From: Apibacter mensalis
Lineage (GTDB): Bacteria; Bacteroidota; Bacteroidia; Flavobacteriales; Weeksellaceae
Length of the DNA: 64,000 nucleotides
Direction: 5' to 3'
Assembly (NCBI RefSeq): GCF_001418685.1
Contig: NZ_LIVM01000007.1
Coordinates: forward strand, 1 to 64,000
Part shown: positions 1,527 through 16,480 of the stretch, piece by piece
Layout of the letters: each line of letters starts with the position of its first letter
Numbering within the stretch: the first letter of the stretch is position 1
The notes under the pieces: generated by a model
Database searches by the model: none
Told to the model about the DNA's origin: nothing
Seen by the model: only the letters and a program-made list of their open reading frames with translations
Translations under genes and position numbers: made by a program

Positions 1527-3674
1527 TTATTTTATAATTTTCATTTCATCTATTAGCCTTTGGGCTCCGGCATATTTATCTATAATAAATAATATATAAC
1601 GGATGTCAACCATAATATTTCTGCAAATAGTTGGATCGTAATTAGTATCGCTCATTGTACCTTCCCAAACTCTGTCAAAATTGAGTCCAACCAAATTACC
1701 TTGAGAATCAAAAGCAGGACTTCCTGAGTTTCCTCCGGTGGTATGGTTGGTAGCAATATAATTTACTATTATATCTCCATTTTGTGAATAGGAGCCGAAA
1801 TTTTTTTGATTATACAATGTTATCAATTTTTTAGGAAGATCGAATTCATAATCATTGGGGACATATTTTTCAATAACACCGGACAATGTTGTAAATGGTT
1901 TATAATAGATACCGTCTTTGGGCATATATCCGTCAATTTTACCATAGGTAATTCTTAAAGTAGAATTTGCATCCGGAAAGAACTTTTTAGAAGGAAAAGC
2001 ATTAAGTTGGGCTTTCATGTATTTTCTTTGAAGACTATCAAGCTTCTTGTCAAATTCATCATGATAAGGTAAAATTTTTACTCTGAACATTTCAACGTAA
2101 GGGTTAATAAAGTTTAAAACAGCATCTTCTTTTAATTTAGATTTTATATTTTCCTGTGAATCAGTAGATAAAATAGATAAGAGATTTCCTTTTTTACCGG
2201 TTATATAAGATTTATTCCATAATTCAGATAAGTAAATATTACAGGAAGATACCTTTTCATAATCTTCATGACCGGCTATCTGAAATCGTGGTTCAATATT
2301 CATACTATACATGGAAAGCATTTGAGAAGATACTTTTTTGTCTAATTCGGGATCGTAATTTTTATAAATATTCGTCAAATTTTTAATGACTCTTAATTTT
2401 ATTTTTTCAAAATTTTGATCTGAAGTACTAAGAAGATTGGATAATATATAGGCCATACGGAAAGTCTCAGAATTCGAATAAAATACTTCATTAAAATAAG
2501 TATAAGCCTTATTATATCCACTACTACTTTTATATAGTCCTTTCATAGTATTCAATAAAACTAAATTTTTATTTCTATCATCAAGACTTGTGTTGGTATG
2601 TTCTATTAATTGAGTTTCGTATTCCTTTCTTTTTTGTATAGTATTAGATTTAATCAATCCTTGATTTTCACCTATCCATTTTTTCCATCCGTTGGCTATT
2701 GAAGCATACTTCGCTGCATATTTTATTTTTATTTCTTTATTTTCACGCATAGCGCTATCTAAAATTTTTAAAGATTCATTACGTAAAGAAATTCTGGAGG
2801 GATTAGTTATTTCTAGGATTTGTTCTATAGCGGATGAAGGTAAATATTCTTGAGTTCTTCCGGGAAATCCATATACGAATGAAAAATCATTTTCCTTTTT
2901 GTCTTTAATTGAAATAGGTAAATAATATTTGGGAGTATAGGGAATGTTATCTTTTGAATATTTTGCAGGACGATTATTCTTATCGGCATAAATTCTAAAA
3001 AGAGAAAAGTCTCCGGTATGTCTAGGCCACATCCAGTTATCAGTATCTGATCCGTATTTTCCAATGGAAGATGGCGGAGCTCCTACTAAACGAATATCTT
3101 CATAGGTTTCTGTTATAAAGGCATAATATTGGTTACCATAATAAAAAGGTAATATAGCTATATCTTGATAATTTTCTTTTTTTATAGTAGTGAGAGTTTT
3201 ATTAATATTATTTTGAATAAGTGTATTTCTTTGTTGTTCAGTTAAATTGTCACTTATCCCCATTAAAATTTGAGGAGTAACTTCTTTGATATCAACTATG
3301 AATGTTGCTTTTAATCCTTCGTTAGGTTTTTCTTCATCAAAACTGGAAGCCCAAAAACCATGAGTTAATAGGTCGTTGCTAACGGTAGAGTGTGATTGTA
3401 TATTATAATATCCGCAATGATGGTTGGTAAGCAATAGACCTTTAGGAGAAATAATTTCAGAAGTACAACCCCCTCCGAAATGTGCAACAGCATCTTTAAT
3501 ACTTGGATTCTTTGTATTAAATATTTGTTTCGAGGATATTTTCATACCCATTTCCTTCATTTCTTTTTCATTAAGTTGGTTGGGCATCCACATGCCACCA
3601 CCCATTTGAGCAGTTAAAAATGAAGCGTTTAAAAAACATGATAATAAACATGATTTTAGCATAGTTTTTTTCAT
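1527..3674 (-). CDS. S46 family dipeptidyl-peptidase, DPP11 type (Asp/Glu-specific)
   Basis: Exported serine peptidase that removes dipeptides from peptide N-termini. The full frame (to 3683) is 718 residues; I prefer the second ATG at 3674, which puts a normal Lys-rich signal peptide first and leaves a short leader after a promoter box at 3694-3701. Family triad (numbered from the longer start): His in TNHHCGYY near 88, Asp225 in HTGDF, Ser653 in GGNSGSP. The residue 18 after the serine is Arg671 (NFDRVWEG). In Porphyromonas DPP11 the equivalent Arg673 confers preference for acidic P1 residues, while DPP7 has Gly there, so DPP11 specificity is inferred. Length matches PgDPP11 (720). Probably periplasmic, supplying acidic dipeptides as nutrients. 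Confidence 0.88.
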   Translation of the reverse strand: MKKTMLKSCLLSCFLNASFLTAQMGGGMWMPNQLNEKEMKEMGMKISSKQIFNTKNPSIKDAVAHFGGGCTSEIISPKGLLLTNHHCGYYNIQSHSTVSNDLLTHGFWASSFDEEKPNEGLKATFIVDIKEVTPQILMGISDNLTEQQRNTLIQNNINKTLTTIKKENYQDIAILPFYYGNQYYAFITETYEDIRLVGAPPSSIGKYGSDTDNWMWPRHTGDFSLFRIYADKNNRPAKYSKDNIPYTPKYYLPISIKDKKENDFSFVYGFPGRTQEYLPSSAIEQILEITNPSRISLRNESLKILDSAMRENKEIKIKYAAKYASIANGWKKWIGENQGLIKSNTIQKRKEYETQLIEHTNTSLDDRNKNLVLLNTMKGLYKSSSGYNKAYTYFNEVFYSNSETFRMAYILSNLLSTSDQNFEKIKLRVIKNLTNIYKNYDPELDKKVSSQMLSMYSMNIEPRFQIAGHEDYEKVSSCNIYLSELWNKSYITGKKGNLLSILSTDSQENIKSKLKEDAVLNFINPYVEMFRVKILPYHDEFDKKLDSLQRKYMKAQLNAFPSKKFFPDANSTLRITYGKIDGYMPKDGIYYKPFTTLSGVIEKYVPNDYEFDLPKKLITLYNQKNFGSYSQNGDIIVNYIATNHTTGGNSGSPAFDSQGNLVGLNFDRVWEGTMSDTNYDPTICRNIMVDIRYILFIIDKYAGAQRLIDEMKIIK

Positions 3675-3693
3675 TGGTACCATAATTAGTTTT

Positions 3694-11584: not shown

Positions 11585-12976
11585 TTAATAACCTAAAAGA
11601 TCCAAAATTTGTTTATAATTTTGTTCCTCACGAAATACTTCATAAGTAAAATCACCGTCTTTATTTTTATTAATTAAAATATGTTTAGGCTGAGGAACTA
11701 AACAATGGTGTACGCCACCGAATCCGCTAATGGCATCTTGATAGGCGCCCGTATTAAAAAAACCAATATATAAAGGTTTTTCTTCACTAAAAATAGGAAG
11801 GTAAATGGCATTCACGTGCTGTTCAGAATTATAATAATCATCACTATCACAAGTAAGTCCTCCTAGGAAAACACGCTCATAGGAATCCTCCCAACGATTT
11901 ATTGGAAGCATGGTAAATCGACGAGAAATGGCCCAAGAATCAGGTAGAGTAGTCATAAAGGAGCTATCTATCATGTCCCATTTTTCCCGATCATTTTGTC
12001 TTTTTTGACTTAAAATTTTGTATACAATACCTCCACTTTCTCCAACGGTAAATGAACCGAATTCAGTATATAAAGTTGGTTCTTCTACTCCTTCTTCTTC
12101 GCAGAATTTCTTTATTTGATAGGTAATTTCATTGACCATATAGTAGTAATCATAATCGAAATTTAAGGAATTTTTTATAGGAAAACCTCCGCCGATATTT
12201 AATGAATCTACTTCGGGAGCAATCTTTTTTAATCGGGCATAAACCCGTAAACATTTATAAAGTTCATTCCAATAATAGGACGTATCTTTAATTCCGGTGT
12301 TGATAAAGAAATGCAGCATCTTCAATCGTGCAAAGGGATGATTTTGAATTTTTTGCGCATAAAATGGCACAATGTCTTTATATCCAATACCCAGTCGAGA
12401 AGTATAAAACTCAAATTTAGGTTCTTCTTCGGAAGCAATTCGAATTCCTATATTAAAATTAGTATCTATACTGTCGGAAAGTCGATCAATTTCTCTGAAG
12501 TTATCCAAGACAGGTAAAATATTGGAAAAGCCTCCGTTAATCATTTCCGAGATAATCTTTAAATATTCATCGGTTTTGAATCCGTTGCACACTACCTCAA
12601 TATTTTTATAGACAATTCCCTTATTGTATAATCTTCGAATAATTTCCATATCGTTTGAAAAAGAAGTTTCCAAACTAATTTTATTTTTTAAAGCCTCTTG
12701 AACCACAAATGAAAAATGACTTGATTTGGTACAGTAACAATATTTATATTCATTGTTGTAATTATTTTCCTTAAAAGCTTTTTTAAACCATTTTTTGGTT
12801 TGTTGTATATTTTGTGATATTTTAGGTAAATAATTAAACTTAAAGGGAGTTCCGAATTTTTCAATTAGGTCCATTAAAGGAATGTCATGAAATAATAAAT
12901 TTCCGTTATCAACCTTAAATTCGGGTTGTGGAAAGTCAAAAGTTTGTTGAATTAAATCGTGATACTTTATTTTCAT
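11585..12976 (-). CDS. speA: Arginine decarboxylase, short Bacteroidetes type
   Basis: PLP-dependent fold-III decarboxylase converting arginine to agmatine, first step of polyamine synthesis. It is 463 residues long, the compact form seen in Bacteroidota rather than the 650-residue E. coli SpeA. The PLP lysine is in YCYCTKSSHF near residue 83; LNIGGGFPIKNS is the glycine loop that binds the cofactor phosphate; C-terminal TCDSDD and the GAYQDAISGFGGVHH element fit the second active-site half. It starts with MKIKYHDL and is monocistronic. Substrate (arginine rather than another basic amino acid) is inferred from family resemblance. Confidence 0.85.
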   Translation of the reverse strand: MKIKYHDLIQQTFDFPQPEFKVDNGNLLFHDIPLMDLIEKFGTPFKFNYLPKISQNIQQTKKWFKKAFKENNYNNEYKYCYCTKSSHFSFVVQEALKNKISLETSFSNDMEIIRRLYNKGIVYKNIEVVCNGFKTDEYLKIISEMINGGFSNILPVLDNFREIDRLSDSIDTNFNIGIRIASEEEPKFEFYTSRLGIGYKDIVPFYAQKIQNHPFARLKMLHFFINTGIKDTSYYWNELYKCLRVYARLKKIAPEVDSLNIGGGFPIKNSLNFDYDYYYMVNEITYQIKKFCEEEGVEEPTLYTEFGSFTVGESGGIVYKILSQKRQNDREKWDMIDSSFMTTLPDSWAISRRFTMLPINRWEDSYERVFLGGLTCDSDDYYNSEQHVNAIYLPIFSEEKPLYIGFFNTGAYQDAISGFGGVHHCLVPQPKHILINKNKDGDFTYEVFREEQNYKQILDLLGY

Positions 12977-13153: not shown

Positions 13154-14017
13154 TTATAAAAAGCTGTTTATTAATTCTTCATGCAAAATACCTTCACATA
13201 TTTGTCGCACTTCACCGGTCATTCTTATTTGCCAATTATCATTAATTTCTATTTCAAGTTCACCCCCAAGCATCTTAATAGTTACTTGTCTATTAATCAA
13301 CCCTTTTTTTCTTAAGACACTTGCTACCGCACAGGATGAACTTCCTGAGGCTAAGGTAAATCCGGCTCCTCTTTCCCAGATCAATAGTTGAACCTCATCT
13401 CTATTAATAATTTTTGCAAATTGAACATTAATACGGTTAGGAAATTTATAAAAAGATTCAATTTTAGGTCCATACTTTTTTATTTCTTCAATATCCAGAT
13501 TTTTTTTTATAATGACACAATGTGGATTTCCAACAGACACACAATTGACCAGAAACTCTTGGTTGTCAATACTAATAATTTCATCCTGAACTTCTTCAGA
13601 ATTAAATGTAGTAGGTATTTGTTTAGAGTTAAAGATAGCTTGTCCCATATCTACAGTTATTAGTGTTGCTCTTTCTTCATGTGTTTCTTGTATGGTTGCA
13701 TGCACTTTTCCACCTTTGGTTTCTACCATAAATTCCTTTTGAGGAATGATTTTATAATCATATACATATTTGCAAAAAATTCTTAATCCGTTTCCGCTTT
13801 TTTCTGCTTCGGAGCCATCCGGATTAAAAATTTTGAGACCTATATCTGCAGAATCAGACTTTGTTTTCAATAAAATACCATCAGAACCTATACCGAAGTT
13901 CACATTACAAATTTTTTGAATGGCTTTTTCAGTTAAAGGAAAAGTAATATTATTTTCATCGATTACAATATATTCGTTTCCCAAACCTTGGGATTTTATA
14001 AAAAAATTTTTTTCCAT
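13154..14017 (-). CDS. DapF-family epimerase with both catalytic cysteines replaced by serine
   Basis: Homologue of diaminopimelate epimerase (287 residues, two-fold alpha/beta DapF fold). Fold motifs are clear: GLGNEYIVID at 11-20, GIGSDGILL at 42-50, NPDGSEAE at 65-72, GNPHCV at 163-168 and WERGAG at 214-219. In true DapF the two acid-base residues are cysteines in CGNG and ACGTGA. Here the sites read S74-GNG and A-S224-G-SSSC, so both are serine; a cysteine lies five residues after the second site. The DNA is read cleanly at both places. It may be a paralogue with another substrate or a serine-based isomerase; a canonical DapF would then be needed elsewhere. Monocistronic. Confidence 0.75.
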   Translation of the reverse strand: MEKNFFIKSQGLGNEYIVIDENNITFPLTEKAIQKICNVNFGIGSDGILLKTKSDSADIGLKIFNPDGSEAEKSGNGLRIFCKYVYDYKIIPQKEFMVETKGGKVHATIQETHEERATLITVDMGQAIFNSKQIPTTFNSEEVQDEIISIDNQEFLVNCVSVGNPHCVIIKKNLDIEEIKKYGPKIESFYKFPNRINVQFAKIINRDEVQLLIWERGAGFTLASGSSSCAVASVLRKKGLINRQVTIKMLGGELEIEINDNWQIRMTGEVRQICEGILHEELINSFL

Positions 14018-14252: not shown

Positions 14253-15560
14253 TTAAGATTGTTTTAACCACCGAAATATCTCCCTGATATTGACTTTTTT
14301 CCCATACATGAGAATTCCAATCCTATATATTTTGCTTGCGATATAAACCATTACTAAAACGGATCCGACCATAGTTATAATGGATACGGCTAATTGCCAT
14401 CCCGGTATACCATAAAATGACCGGGTAACCATAGCCATGGGTGACGTAAATGGAATAATGCTTAACCAAAATGACACGGGACCTTCAGGGTTATTTATGA
14501 TACTTATACATCCATAAGCTCCTAATAATAGGGGAACTACTATAATAGGGGTAAATTGTTGAGTTTCAGTATCATTATCAACAGCTGCACCAATGGCTGC
14601 AAAAAAAGAGCTGTAAAATAAATATCCCATGAAAAAGAAGAAAAGAAAAATGAAAATTATCAATGGATAATCTAGATTAAAGAGTGCATTAATGGTATCA
14701 CTAATTTGAATTTGGGTTTCTTGATTGAGAAAATTCCGTAAATCATTTTGTTGAATAGAAAGGGTTAATTCATGACCGAACAACAGCTTTCCCATACTAA
14801 GTAGAAATAGGGTCATTCCAATCCATATACAAAATTGGGTTAAGGCTACTAAGGTAGTACCCAATATCTTTCCCATCATTAATTCAAAAGGTTTGACAGA
14901 AGAGATGATTATTTCTACTACTCTGTTGTTTTTTTCTTCCATAATGCTTCTCATTACACGTGTTCCGTATATAATAAAAAACATAAGATTTACATACATT
15001 AATGATAATGAGAGAATTTCCTTTATAAAATGGTCATTTTCTGACTTTCCTTCGTTAAGATTGATAATTTGTAAGGATATTTTGGAATTAATTTTATCGA
15101 TATCGGATTGTTTAATTCCCAATAGTTTTCTTCTTTTTTCTTCAATTTTTTTATTGATGTTTTCTTCGATTGAATGAAGAAGATTTTTAGTAAGATTTTT
15201 ATTGGTGTAAAGTTGAATGTGATCTTGTAACTTATCTAAAAGCGAATCTTGGGTTTTAGGTATGTATAAGATTGCATCTAAAAATTTACTTTGAGCTAAA
15301 GAGTCTTTTAAATCTCTTAACTCATTTTCAGTATAAAAATTATATATGTTTTTTTCATTACTTTTAAACTCAGAGTAAAACTCATGGGTTGAATCAATTA
15401 TGGCAATATGTGAATTGCCTTCATTTATTTTAATCATATAAGCAATGATTACTCCGGCTAATATTACTAAAATCGGAGCAAAAAAAGTAATAAGAACAAA
15501 AGATTTTTTTCTTGCCTGGGTAAGAAATTCTCTTCTCATTACTAAAAAAATATTTCTCAT
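14253..15560 (-). CDS. ABC transporter permease, NatB type
   Basis: Membrane subunit of an ABC-2 type exporter, 435 residues. One N-terminal membrane helix follows a cytosolic Arg/Lys-rich start, then a large extracytoplasmic loop of roughly 140 residues, then five or six C-terminal helices. This is the NatB/ABC2_membrane_3 plan. The MRSIMEEKNNRVVEIIISSVKP element before the helices is typical of the family. Its start overlaps the stop of the ATPase gene by four bases, so the two are translationally coupled. Substrate is unknown; NatB relatives export sodium or other small compounds. Confidence 0.85.
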   Translation of the reverse strand: MRNIFLVMRREFLTQARKKSFVLITFFAPILVILAGVIIAYMIKINEGNSHIAIIDSTHEFYSEFKSNEKNIYNFYTENELRDLKDSLAQSKFLDAILYIPKTQDSLLDKLQDHIQLYTNKNLTKNLLHSIEENINKKIEEKRRKLLGIKQSDIDKINSKISLQIINLNEGKSENDHFIKEILSLSLMYVNLMFFIIYGTRVMRSIMEEKNNRVVEIIISSVKPFELMMGKILGTTLVALTQFCIWIGMTLFLLSMGKLLFGHELTLSIQQNDLRNFLNQETQIQISDTINALFNLDYPLIIFIFLFFFFMGYLFYSSFFAAIGAAVDNDTETQQFTPIIVVPLLLGAYGCISIINNPEGPVSFWLSIIPFTSPMAMVTRSFYGIPGWQLAVSIITMVGSVLVMVYIASKIYRIGILMYGKKVNIREIFRWLKQS

Positions 15561-16480
15561 AGATTTTTTGAGTTTACGGCATTAATAAAAACTTCATTCA
15601 TACTGGGAATTTCCTCATAAAAAGAAAGAATAGTTCCTTTAGTTGATAACTCTGTTATAAAATATTTTAAATAGTTTCGATTTGATATTTTAATTGAAAA
15701 TGAATATTCATTATCCCTTTTTGTCAGATTTTCAACTACATTAAGTTGCATTAAATTTTCAATTTCAAAGAAGTCTATATCGGTAATTCTAATCTTAAAT
15801 TTATCTTGCTTAAATTTATGTCTGATCTCTTTAACCGATCCATCTAAAATTTTTTTTGAGTTATTTATGAGAGCTATATAATCACATAGTTCTTCTACAG
15901 ATTCCATCCGATGAGAGGAAAATAAAATAGTGGTTCCTTTTTCTTTAAGCTCTAAAATTTCGTCTCTTATGAGATTGGCATTTACAGGATCAAATCCACT
16001 GAAAGGCTCATCAAATATTAATAAATCAGGATTATGCAATACCGTAACCACAAATTGAATTTTTTGAGCCATGCCTTTTGACAATTCACTTAGTTTTTTA
16101 TTCCACCATTTGTCTATTTTTAGTTTATCAAACCAATATTCCAAACGCGATTTAGCCTCAGTTTTATTCATACCCTTAAGCTGAGCTAAATAAATTGCCT
16201 GTTCACCAATTTTCATGTTTTTATACAAACCTCGTTCTTCGGGCATATATCCAATGTGCGAAATGTGTTTAGGTTGTAAGGGTTCTCCATTAAAATAAAT
16301 CGTACCACTATCCGGCTTAGTAATTTGATTTATGATTCTAATAAATGTAGTTTTTCCGGCACCGTTCGGGCCTAAAATTCCATAGATACTACCTTTTGGA
16401 ATTTTGATGTTGAAATTATCTAAGGCAATTTTATCTTCATAAGTTCGGGTAACATTTTCAGCTACAATAAAATAATCCAT
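15557..16480 (-). CDS. ABC transporter ATP-binding protein, NatA type
   Basis: ATPase subunit partnering the permease encoded directly downstream. It is 307 residues: Walker A GPNGAGKT near 37-44, signature LSKGMAQK (variant of LSGGQ, common in this group), Walker B LLIFDEPFSGFDP, and the switch histidine in LFSSHRM. A C-terminal DUF4162-like extension after about residue 215 is also typical of NatA-like exporters. It is first in a two-gene operon with a -7 box 35 bases upstream. Confidence 0.9.
   Translation of the reverse strand: MDYFIVAENVTRTYEDKIALDNFNIKIPKGSIYGILGPNGAGKTTFIRIINQITKPDSGTIYFNGEPLQPKHISHIGYMPEERGLYKNMKIGEQAIYLAQLKGMNKTEAKSRLEYWFDKLKIDKWWNKKLSELSKGMAQKIQFVVTVLHNPDLLIFDEPFSGFDPVNANLIRDEILELKEKGTTILFSSHRMESVEELCDYIALINNSKKILDGSVKEIRHKFKQDKFKIRITDIDFFEIENLMQLNVVENLTKRDNEYSFSIKISNRNYLKYFITELSTKGTILSFYEEIPSMNEVFINAVNSKNL

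Follow-up and report, generated by a model that had tools for sequence, protein, structure and literature searches.

Catalysis by cofactor-independent racemases is explained by a pair of cysteines, one thiolate and one thiol, and exchanging cysteine for serine in the laboratory nearly kills these enzymes. For diaminopimelate (DAP) epimerase, DapF (EC 5.1.1.7), earlier mutant work reportedly comes from Koo and Blanchard and from Usha. A study of PddB gives <0.1% activity for Cys-to-Ser mutants (PMC8225329), and a study of HisR gives greatly reduced activity for C67S and C209S (PMC11602996). Natural catalytic serines are described in a third paper (PMC4113996), according to which the 4-hydroxyproline 2-epimerase B9JQV3 (Ser/Cys) and the trans-3-hydroxyproline dehydratase B9K4G4 (Ser/Thr) are both active, their serine being positioned by an Asn three residues further on. 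The cysteine pair also has a regulatory side: a report on Corynebacterium glutamicum DapF states that the catalytic cysteines form a disulfide under oxidation, shutting off the enzyme, and calls DapF an antibacterial drug target (PMC5296763).

Here we describe a natural DapF homologue with serine at both catalytic positions (Ser/Ser, as opposed to the usual Cys/Cys). Among the literature matches listed, from a search whose scope lay mostly outside subscription journals, we found no description of such a protein, which is weak evidence for its novelty. The change is invisible in annotation because the NCBI family model names the protein plain 'diaminopimelate epimerase'. A natural loss of both cysteines in a protein that keeps the pocket and is the sole DapF homologue found in whole genomes would, if true, show that thiols are dispensable, and the Ser/Ser family would tell which neighbouring residues make serine good enough. 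Inhibitors that bond to the catalytic cysteines are not expected to work on the Ser/Ser version.

A DapF homologue with two catalytic-site serines

The window, by which we mean the whole stretch of 64,000 nucleotides analysed from Apibacter mensalis contig NZ_LIVM01000007.1, carries an open reading frame at 13154-14017 on the minus strand, with an ATG start and a TAA stop. It encodes a protein of 287 aa that is the sole DapF homologue found in its own genome. The protein scores 249.7 bits against the DapF equivalog model TIGR00652 (cut-off 114.65) and 186 bits against Pfam DAP_epimerase PF01678 (cut-off 34.7). At E 0.001 the only other Pfam match is to PhzC-PhzF, below its cut-off, and the scores for the PhzF family fall short in both models (PF02567, 21.4 against 27; TIGR00654, 22.6 against 76.2). 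Neither the Pfam proline racemase family nor the NCBIfam histidine racemase model NF052224 matches the protein at E 0.001, and the model of bifunctional DapF/glutamate racemase, NF038284, gives 69.4 bits for a cut-off of 350.

In phmmer alignments Ser74 and Ser224 are aligned with both catalytic cysteines of solved DapFs, the same two positions that hold serine in the H. influenzae entries titled C73S (2q9h) and C217S (2q9j). Ser74 is encoded by AGC (13796..13798, minus strand) and opens the SGNG motif within AEKSGNGLR; Ser224 is encoded by TCA (13346..13348, minus strand) and lies in ASGSSSCA, within TLASGSSSCA. An AlphaFold2 model built from a 58-row alignment (mean pLDDT 95.5, pTM 0.89) predicts the two-domain DapF fold, with Ser74 and Ser224 each placed immediately before a helix (75-87 and 225-237, respectively). 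The top PDB match of the model is the DapF 8qzy (Z 37.8, rmsd 1.7, 272 residues aligned), and 17 of the 18 highest-Z entries are DapF. The remaining one, 7vdy, is an O-ureidoserine racemase that ties with them (Z 36.8), so that the substrate is not fixed by the fold alone. A preliminary description made from the DNA letters had reported serine at both catalytic cysteine positions and the presence of the DapF fold motifs, and both observations are confirmed by the solved structures and the model. As the catalytic cysteines, a defining feature, are absent, we do not class the Ser/Ser protein as a canonical DapF.

The gene is under purifying selection, with dN 0.060 and dS 0.722 relative to its counterpart in the sister genome G008. 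Elsewhere in the window, at 1527-3683 on the minus strand, a Dpp7-like dipeptidyl peptidase is encoded that reaches 615.2 bits against a model cut-off of 1200.

Distribution and origin of the Ser/Ser clade

The host assembly spans 2.33 Mb in 42 contigs and is 99.99% complete. It encodes a single DapF homologue: searches for a second dapF bearing both cysteines, a check proposed in the preliminary description, found none by PF01678, by TIGR00652 or with the window protein as query. The nearest named match is an uncultured Apibacter MAG, at 84% identity. Ser/Ser homologues occur in 7/8 congeneric genomes at 71-88% identity (8/9 including the host), where they are likewise the sole DapF homologue found, also in the single-contig assemblies G007 and G008. 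The exception is G002, whose only DapF is Cys/Cys and belongs to the ordinary flavobacterial type. Of the other 52 relatives three gave no match, and in the remaining 49 the best local match is 29-41% identical; all matches read from these relatives (21), like that of G002, are Cys/Cys.

A scan of species genomes with the window protein identified a double-serine protein, 68% identical, in Clostridium intestinale DSM 6191. Within the Clostridia the searches covered 391 genomes sampled from the class and 225 from the order to which C. intestinale belongs. In the order, 19/225 genomes have a match of 386-499 bits, the next match being at 273 bits; all 19 high matches (L180-L196, L095 in G061 and L094 in G062) are Ser/Ser and the 18 lower matches read (L097, L197-L213) are Cys/Cys. 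The Clostridia-class sample, in which catalytic residues were read in the best-scoring loci only and which may hold more Ser/Ser proteins, contributes at least four further genomes (G314, G085, G305 and G175). Ser/Ser proteins are thus present in at least 31 genomes: 8/9 of the Apibacter-type genus, 19/225 of the clostridial order and four other Clostridia. A further Ser/Ser dapF copy, L214:2040-2700 in G556, has decayed: it is interrupted by stops and has lost part of its sequence. The same genome has another DapF match at 244 bits. Carriage on mobile elements was considered and rejected, the only matches in the plasmid and phage collections (116 and 27 records) being below 60% identity.

We compared 99 rows, leaving aside the contig-end fragment L024: 33 Ser/Ser (31 non-duplicate, L181 and L188 being duplicates), 64 Cys/Cys and two Ala/Cys, with no row carrying a single serine. 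Every unfused row that is not Ser/Ser is Cys/Cys (64/64), and both Ala/Cys rows are fused to CarB. Across the 31 non-duplicate Ser/Ser rows the codon of Ser74 is always AGY and that of Ser224 always TCN.

These fusions join CarB, the carbamoyl-phosphate synthase large subunit, to a C-terminal DapF domain in Clostridia; they are found at L226:3633-7667 (G101), L227:458-4498 (G265) and, as read by eye, L228:795-4850 (G123). The first catalytic cysteine is Ala in L226 and in L123 (G271) and Gly in L227 and L228, the second being kept. The same fusion may account for at least 24 Clostridia-class rows whose open frames span 1316-1369 aa; our literature search found no paper on it.

In a tree computed with the catalytic columns removed, a single branch supported at 100/99 separates 29 Ser/Ser from 51 Cys/Cys rows; 19 of the 99 rows were left out (the duplicates L181 and L188, the CarB-fused L110 and L123, the near copies L095 and L191, and 13 thinned canonical rows). 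The proposal that two serines in an otherwise well-kept protein mark a distinct subfamily therefore holds: the double substitution marks a conserved subfamily and is not drift. The eight Apibacter rows form one group (100/96) within the clostridial Ser/Ser rows, sharing a branch with the C. intestinale group and L190 (100/97); support drops to 94/65 for the branch that unites Apibacter with only the C. intestinale group. Because the Apibacter branch is nested among clostridial Ser/Ser rows when the root is placed among Cys/Cys rows, the gene was probably transferred from clostridia into Apibacter. It would have entered the genus by that route and then displaced the native enzyme, and the Cys/Cys DapF has apparently been replaced throughout the Apibacter-type genus except in G002, which keeps it.

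Synteny was read in five of the eight sister genomes. Downstream of dapF in the window lies a gene for a PLP-dependent decarboxylase resembling arginine and DAP decarboxylases (11585..12976, minus strand), which serves as an anchor for the insertion site. Upstream are genes for an ABC-2 type permease (14253..15560, minus strand) and an ABC transporter ATPase (15557..16480, minus strand) that overlap one another and also lie near dapF in G008, G004 and G003. Ser/Ser dapF adjoins the decarboxylase gene in the window, G008, G004 and G007, and is found near the ABC transporter genes in G003. In G002 the decarboxylase gene is adjoined by a 109-aa open reading frame, without dapF; the native dapF of this genome is elsewhere, next to an mltG-type (YceG) gene. 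The decarboxylase itself reaches 160.5 bits against the biosynthetic arginine decarboxylase model (cut-off 369), stays under every other listed NCBIfam cut-off as well, and shows 89-99% identity to its counterparts in the four sister genomes examined for it.

Active site, meso-DAP supply and competing readings

The residues that contact a DAP inhibitor in Anabaena DapF are listed in a 2025 structure paper (PMC12039745), from which we took the ten positions besides the catalytic pair. Seven are kept in 33/33 Ser/Ser rows (Asn65, Gly75, Asn164, Asn197, Glu215, Arg216 and Gly225), Asn14 and Asn76 are kept in 32/33, and position 226 is Ser in 28 rows and Thr in five. The distal DAP site, made of three Asn, a Glu and an Arg, is hence complete in all 33 rows (Asn65, Asn164, Asn197, Glu215, Arg216), although the conservation of Asn164 says little because this position is Ser or Val in 31/64 Cys/Cys rows. 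The neighbours of the catalytic pair differ. Lys73 is found in 31/33 Ser/Ser rows whereas Met occupies this position in 63/64 Cys/Cys rows; Ile80 (33/33) stands against Cys (62/64), and Ser227 (32/33) against Gly (64/64). Ser228, which together with Ser227 (13334..13339, minus strand) co-varies with the serine pair, is present in 32/33 Ser/Ser rows and is Ser in 5/64 Cys/Cys rows. More distant positions also differ between the two groups, e.g. Asn40, Pro66 and Val270. With contacts kept and catalytic neighbours changed, the Ser/Ser clade has altered its acid-base surroundings and retained its substrate pocket.

LysA and MurE of the type with a DNPR motif, the motif of meso-DAP-adding MurE, are enzymes that need meso-DAP. 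Both LysA and MurE are over cut-off in 9/9 genomes of the genus, all nine MurE with DNPR; over the whole set, MurE loci were read in 16/19 cases, including those nine, and DNPR was found in 16/16. Rescue by a DAP dehydrogenase was considered for the genus and rejected: TIGR01921 is over cut-off in 0/9 genomes, with partial matches of 18.8-24.8 bits, none of which extends beyond position 82 of the 324 in the model. DapL is over cut-off in 0/14 genomes. With no dehydrogenase over cut-off and no other DapF beside LysA and DNPR-type MurE, we found no candidate maker of meso-DAP other than the Ser/Ser protein in eight genomes of the genus.

The clostridial genomes are more varied. G061, G062 and G293 resemble Apibacter in having one DapF, the Ser/Ser one, DNPR-type MurE and no DAP dehydrogenase over cut-off. 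G314 also has Ser/Ser as its only DapF and may not need an epimerase, since it encodes a DAP dehydrogenase (326.5 bits). Both DapF kinds are present in G305, with the dehydrogenase, and in G060 and G175, without it; in G085 the Ser/Ser protein is accompanied by a 57-bit fragment of another DapF. In the C. intestinale order, a second DapF match at E 1e-30 accompanies the Ser/Ser protein in 12/19 genomes and is missing from 7/19; the seven second copies read (L097, L208-L213) are all Cys/Cys. Among order genomes without Ser/Ser, 18/206 lack any DapF match at E 1e-30. A second match is hence missing more often with Ser/Ser (7/19 vs 18/206; Fisher p 0.0018, or p = 0.011 once near kin are collapsed by eye), p-values that serve only as a guide, since members of a single order are not independent samples and no completeness figures are given for them.

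The reading that we favour, with a probability of roughly 60%, is that the window protein is a working DAP epimerase in which a Ser/Ser acid-base pair replaces the thiol/thiolate pair. Serines at the catalytic positions, retained DAP residues, purifying selection, the status of sole DapF and the co-occurrence of meso-DAP-using enzymes with no DAP dehydrogenase all point to it. LL-DAP would be converted to meso-DAP by two-base proton transfer, Ser74 and Ser224 serving as acid and base on the alpha-carbon. The dipoles of the helices that begin just after the two serines could raise the reactivity of the hydroxyls, perhaps aided by the co-varying Lys73, Ser227 and Ser228. A possible benefit would be immunity to the disulfide switch that inactivates Cys/Cys DapF under oxidation. 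We propose more tentatively, at somewhat short of even odds, that the whole clade is a family of thiol-free, cofactor-free and oxidation-proof epimerases acting on DAP through a Ser/Ser pair, with help from co-evolved Lys73 and Ser227/Ser228; having arisen in clostridia, it would have reached the Bacteroidota of the bee gut and assumed an essential wall step there. The decayed Ser/Ser copy of G556, accompanied as it is by another DapF match, counts against the epimerase reading, as do the dehydrogenases of G314 and G305 and the lack of DapL over cut-off.

An unlikely alternative is changed chemistry or substrate, in which the clade racemises another amino acid or runs an elimination and meso-DAP comes from an undetected source. 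The second DapF matches in 12/19 Ser/Ser genomes of the clostridial order mean that the protein might do something else there. The tie with O-ureidoserine racemase, an enzyme of another substrate, in the fold comparison favours this alternative too, as does the dehydratase activity of the Ser/Thr member of the proline racemase superfamily (PMC4113996). Neighbourhoods, read in 19 of the 23 Ser/Ser genomes outside the genus, contribute to both sides. An AraC-type regulator gene adjoins Ser/Ser dapF in G500, G526 and G527 (L222:8516-9397, L223:9711-10607 and L196:437-1258) and lies one gene off in G305 (L134:11593-12444), divergent from a ddl-dapF pair; these 4/19 neighbourhoods suggest special regulation and hint at inducible expression of Ser/Ser dapF. 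A few neighbours are instead wall or lysine genes: G062 has dapA, G305 has ddl and G293 an alanine-racemase-like gene that scores 148.5 bits (cut-off 168), and similar genes were noted by eye in G621 and G622; no common theme was seen by eye in the remaining neighbourhoods. The preliminary description had supposed that the protein may act on something other than DAP, which our data do not support and which we consider less likely than it did, since nine of the ten DAP contacts are kept in at least 32/33 rows, the tenth being Ser or Thr, and the distal-site residues are invariant. It had also named the lack of another DapF in the genome, together with DAP epimerase activity of the protein, as what would refute that idea; the searches of the host genome bear out the first half of this, with no DAP dehydrogenase over cut-off beside LysA and DNPR-type MurE. 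The same argument extends to the other Ser/Ser genomes of the genus and to G061, G062 and G293, all without another DapF or a dehydrogenase over cut-off yet with meso-DAP-type MurE.

It is less probable still that the protein is a weak or dead DapF retained for binding or regulation, meso-DAP being imported from the gut or produced by some other enzyme. The nearly dead Cys-to-Ser mutants of relatives count against a Ser/Ser epimerase and for this alternative, at <0.1% for PddB (PMC8225329) and greatly reduced activity for HisR (PMC11602996), and the CarB-DapF fusions, in which Ala or Gly takes the first site, show that loss of a catalytic cysteine exists. However, the fusions read have Ala or Gly at one site and never Ser at both, and one would not expect an inactive enzyme to retain its pocket and both serines across a clade or to be the sole homologue in a genus.

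That another cysteine pair took over, leaving catalysis thiol-based, is very improbable. Two of the six cysteines of the window protein, Cys229 and Cys82, lie close to the serines in sequence, but no pair is common to the clade: in the 31 non-duplicate rows only Cys37 is invariant, while Cys229 is Ser in two, Cys82 is missing in 12, and Cys159 and Cys167 are missing in three each. A sequencing or assembly error, for which nothing was found, is refuted and chance is excluded with it by the recurrence of both residues, with varying codons, in genomes of two phyla, including 7/8 congeneric genomes, C. intestinale DSM 6191 and other clostridia.

Comparison with described enzymes

O-ureidoserine racemase, which uses two cysteines, is close to the window protein in fold (7vdy, Z 36.8, 278 residues aligned) and is matched at 96.7 bits by phmmer, but the two share only 27% identity. 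The histidine racemases CntK and HisR also have a DapF-like fold (Z 25.2 and 24.1, respectively); they use two cysteines and the HisR pocket is without basic residues (PMC11602996), whereas the window protein keeps Arg216. B9JQV3 and B9K4G4 share with it the wider fold and a natural serine at a catalytic cysteine position but belong to the proline racemase superfamily, combine one Ser with Cys or Thr, and act on proline-type substrates. The Asn that follows their serine by three residues is absent from the window protein, which has Gly77 at that offset from Ser74 and Ser227 at that offset from Ser224. C. glutamicum DapF is of the same family, and its disulfide switch is impossible in a Ser/Ser enzyme. 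With canonical DapF the window protein has in common the TIGR00652 match, the fold, the DAP contacts and catalytic positions that precede two helices. It differs in having serine for both cysteines, with co-varying Lys73, Ile80, Ser227 and Ser228, and falls outside the PROSITE signature quoted in PMC8225329, which demands cysteine at the first site.
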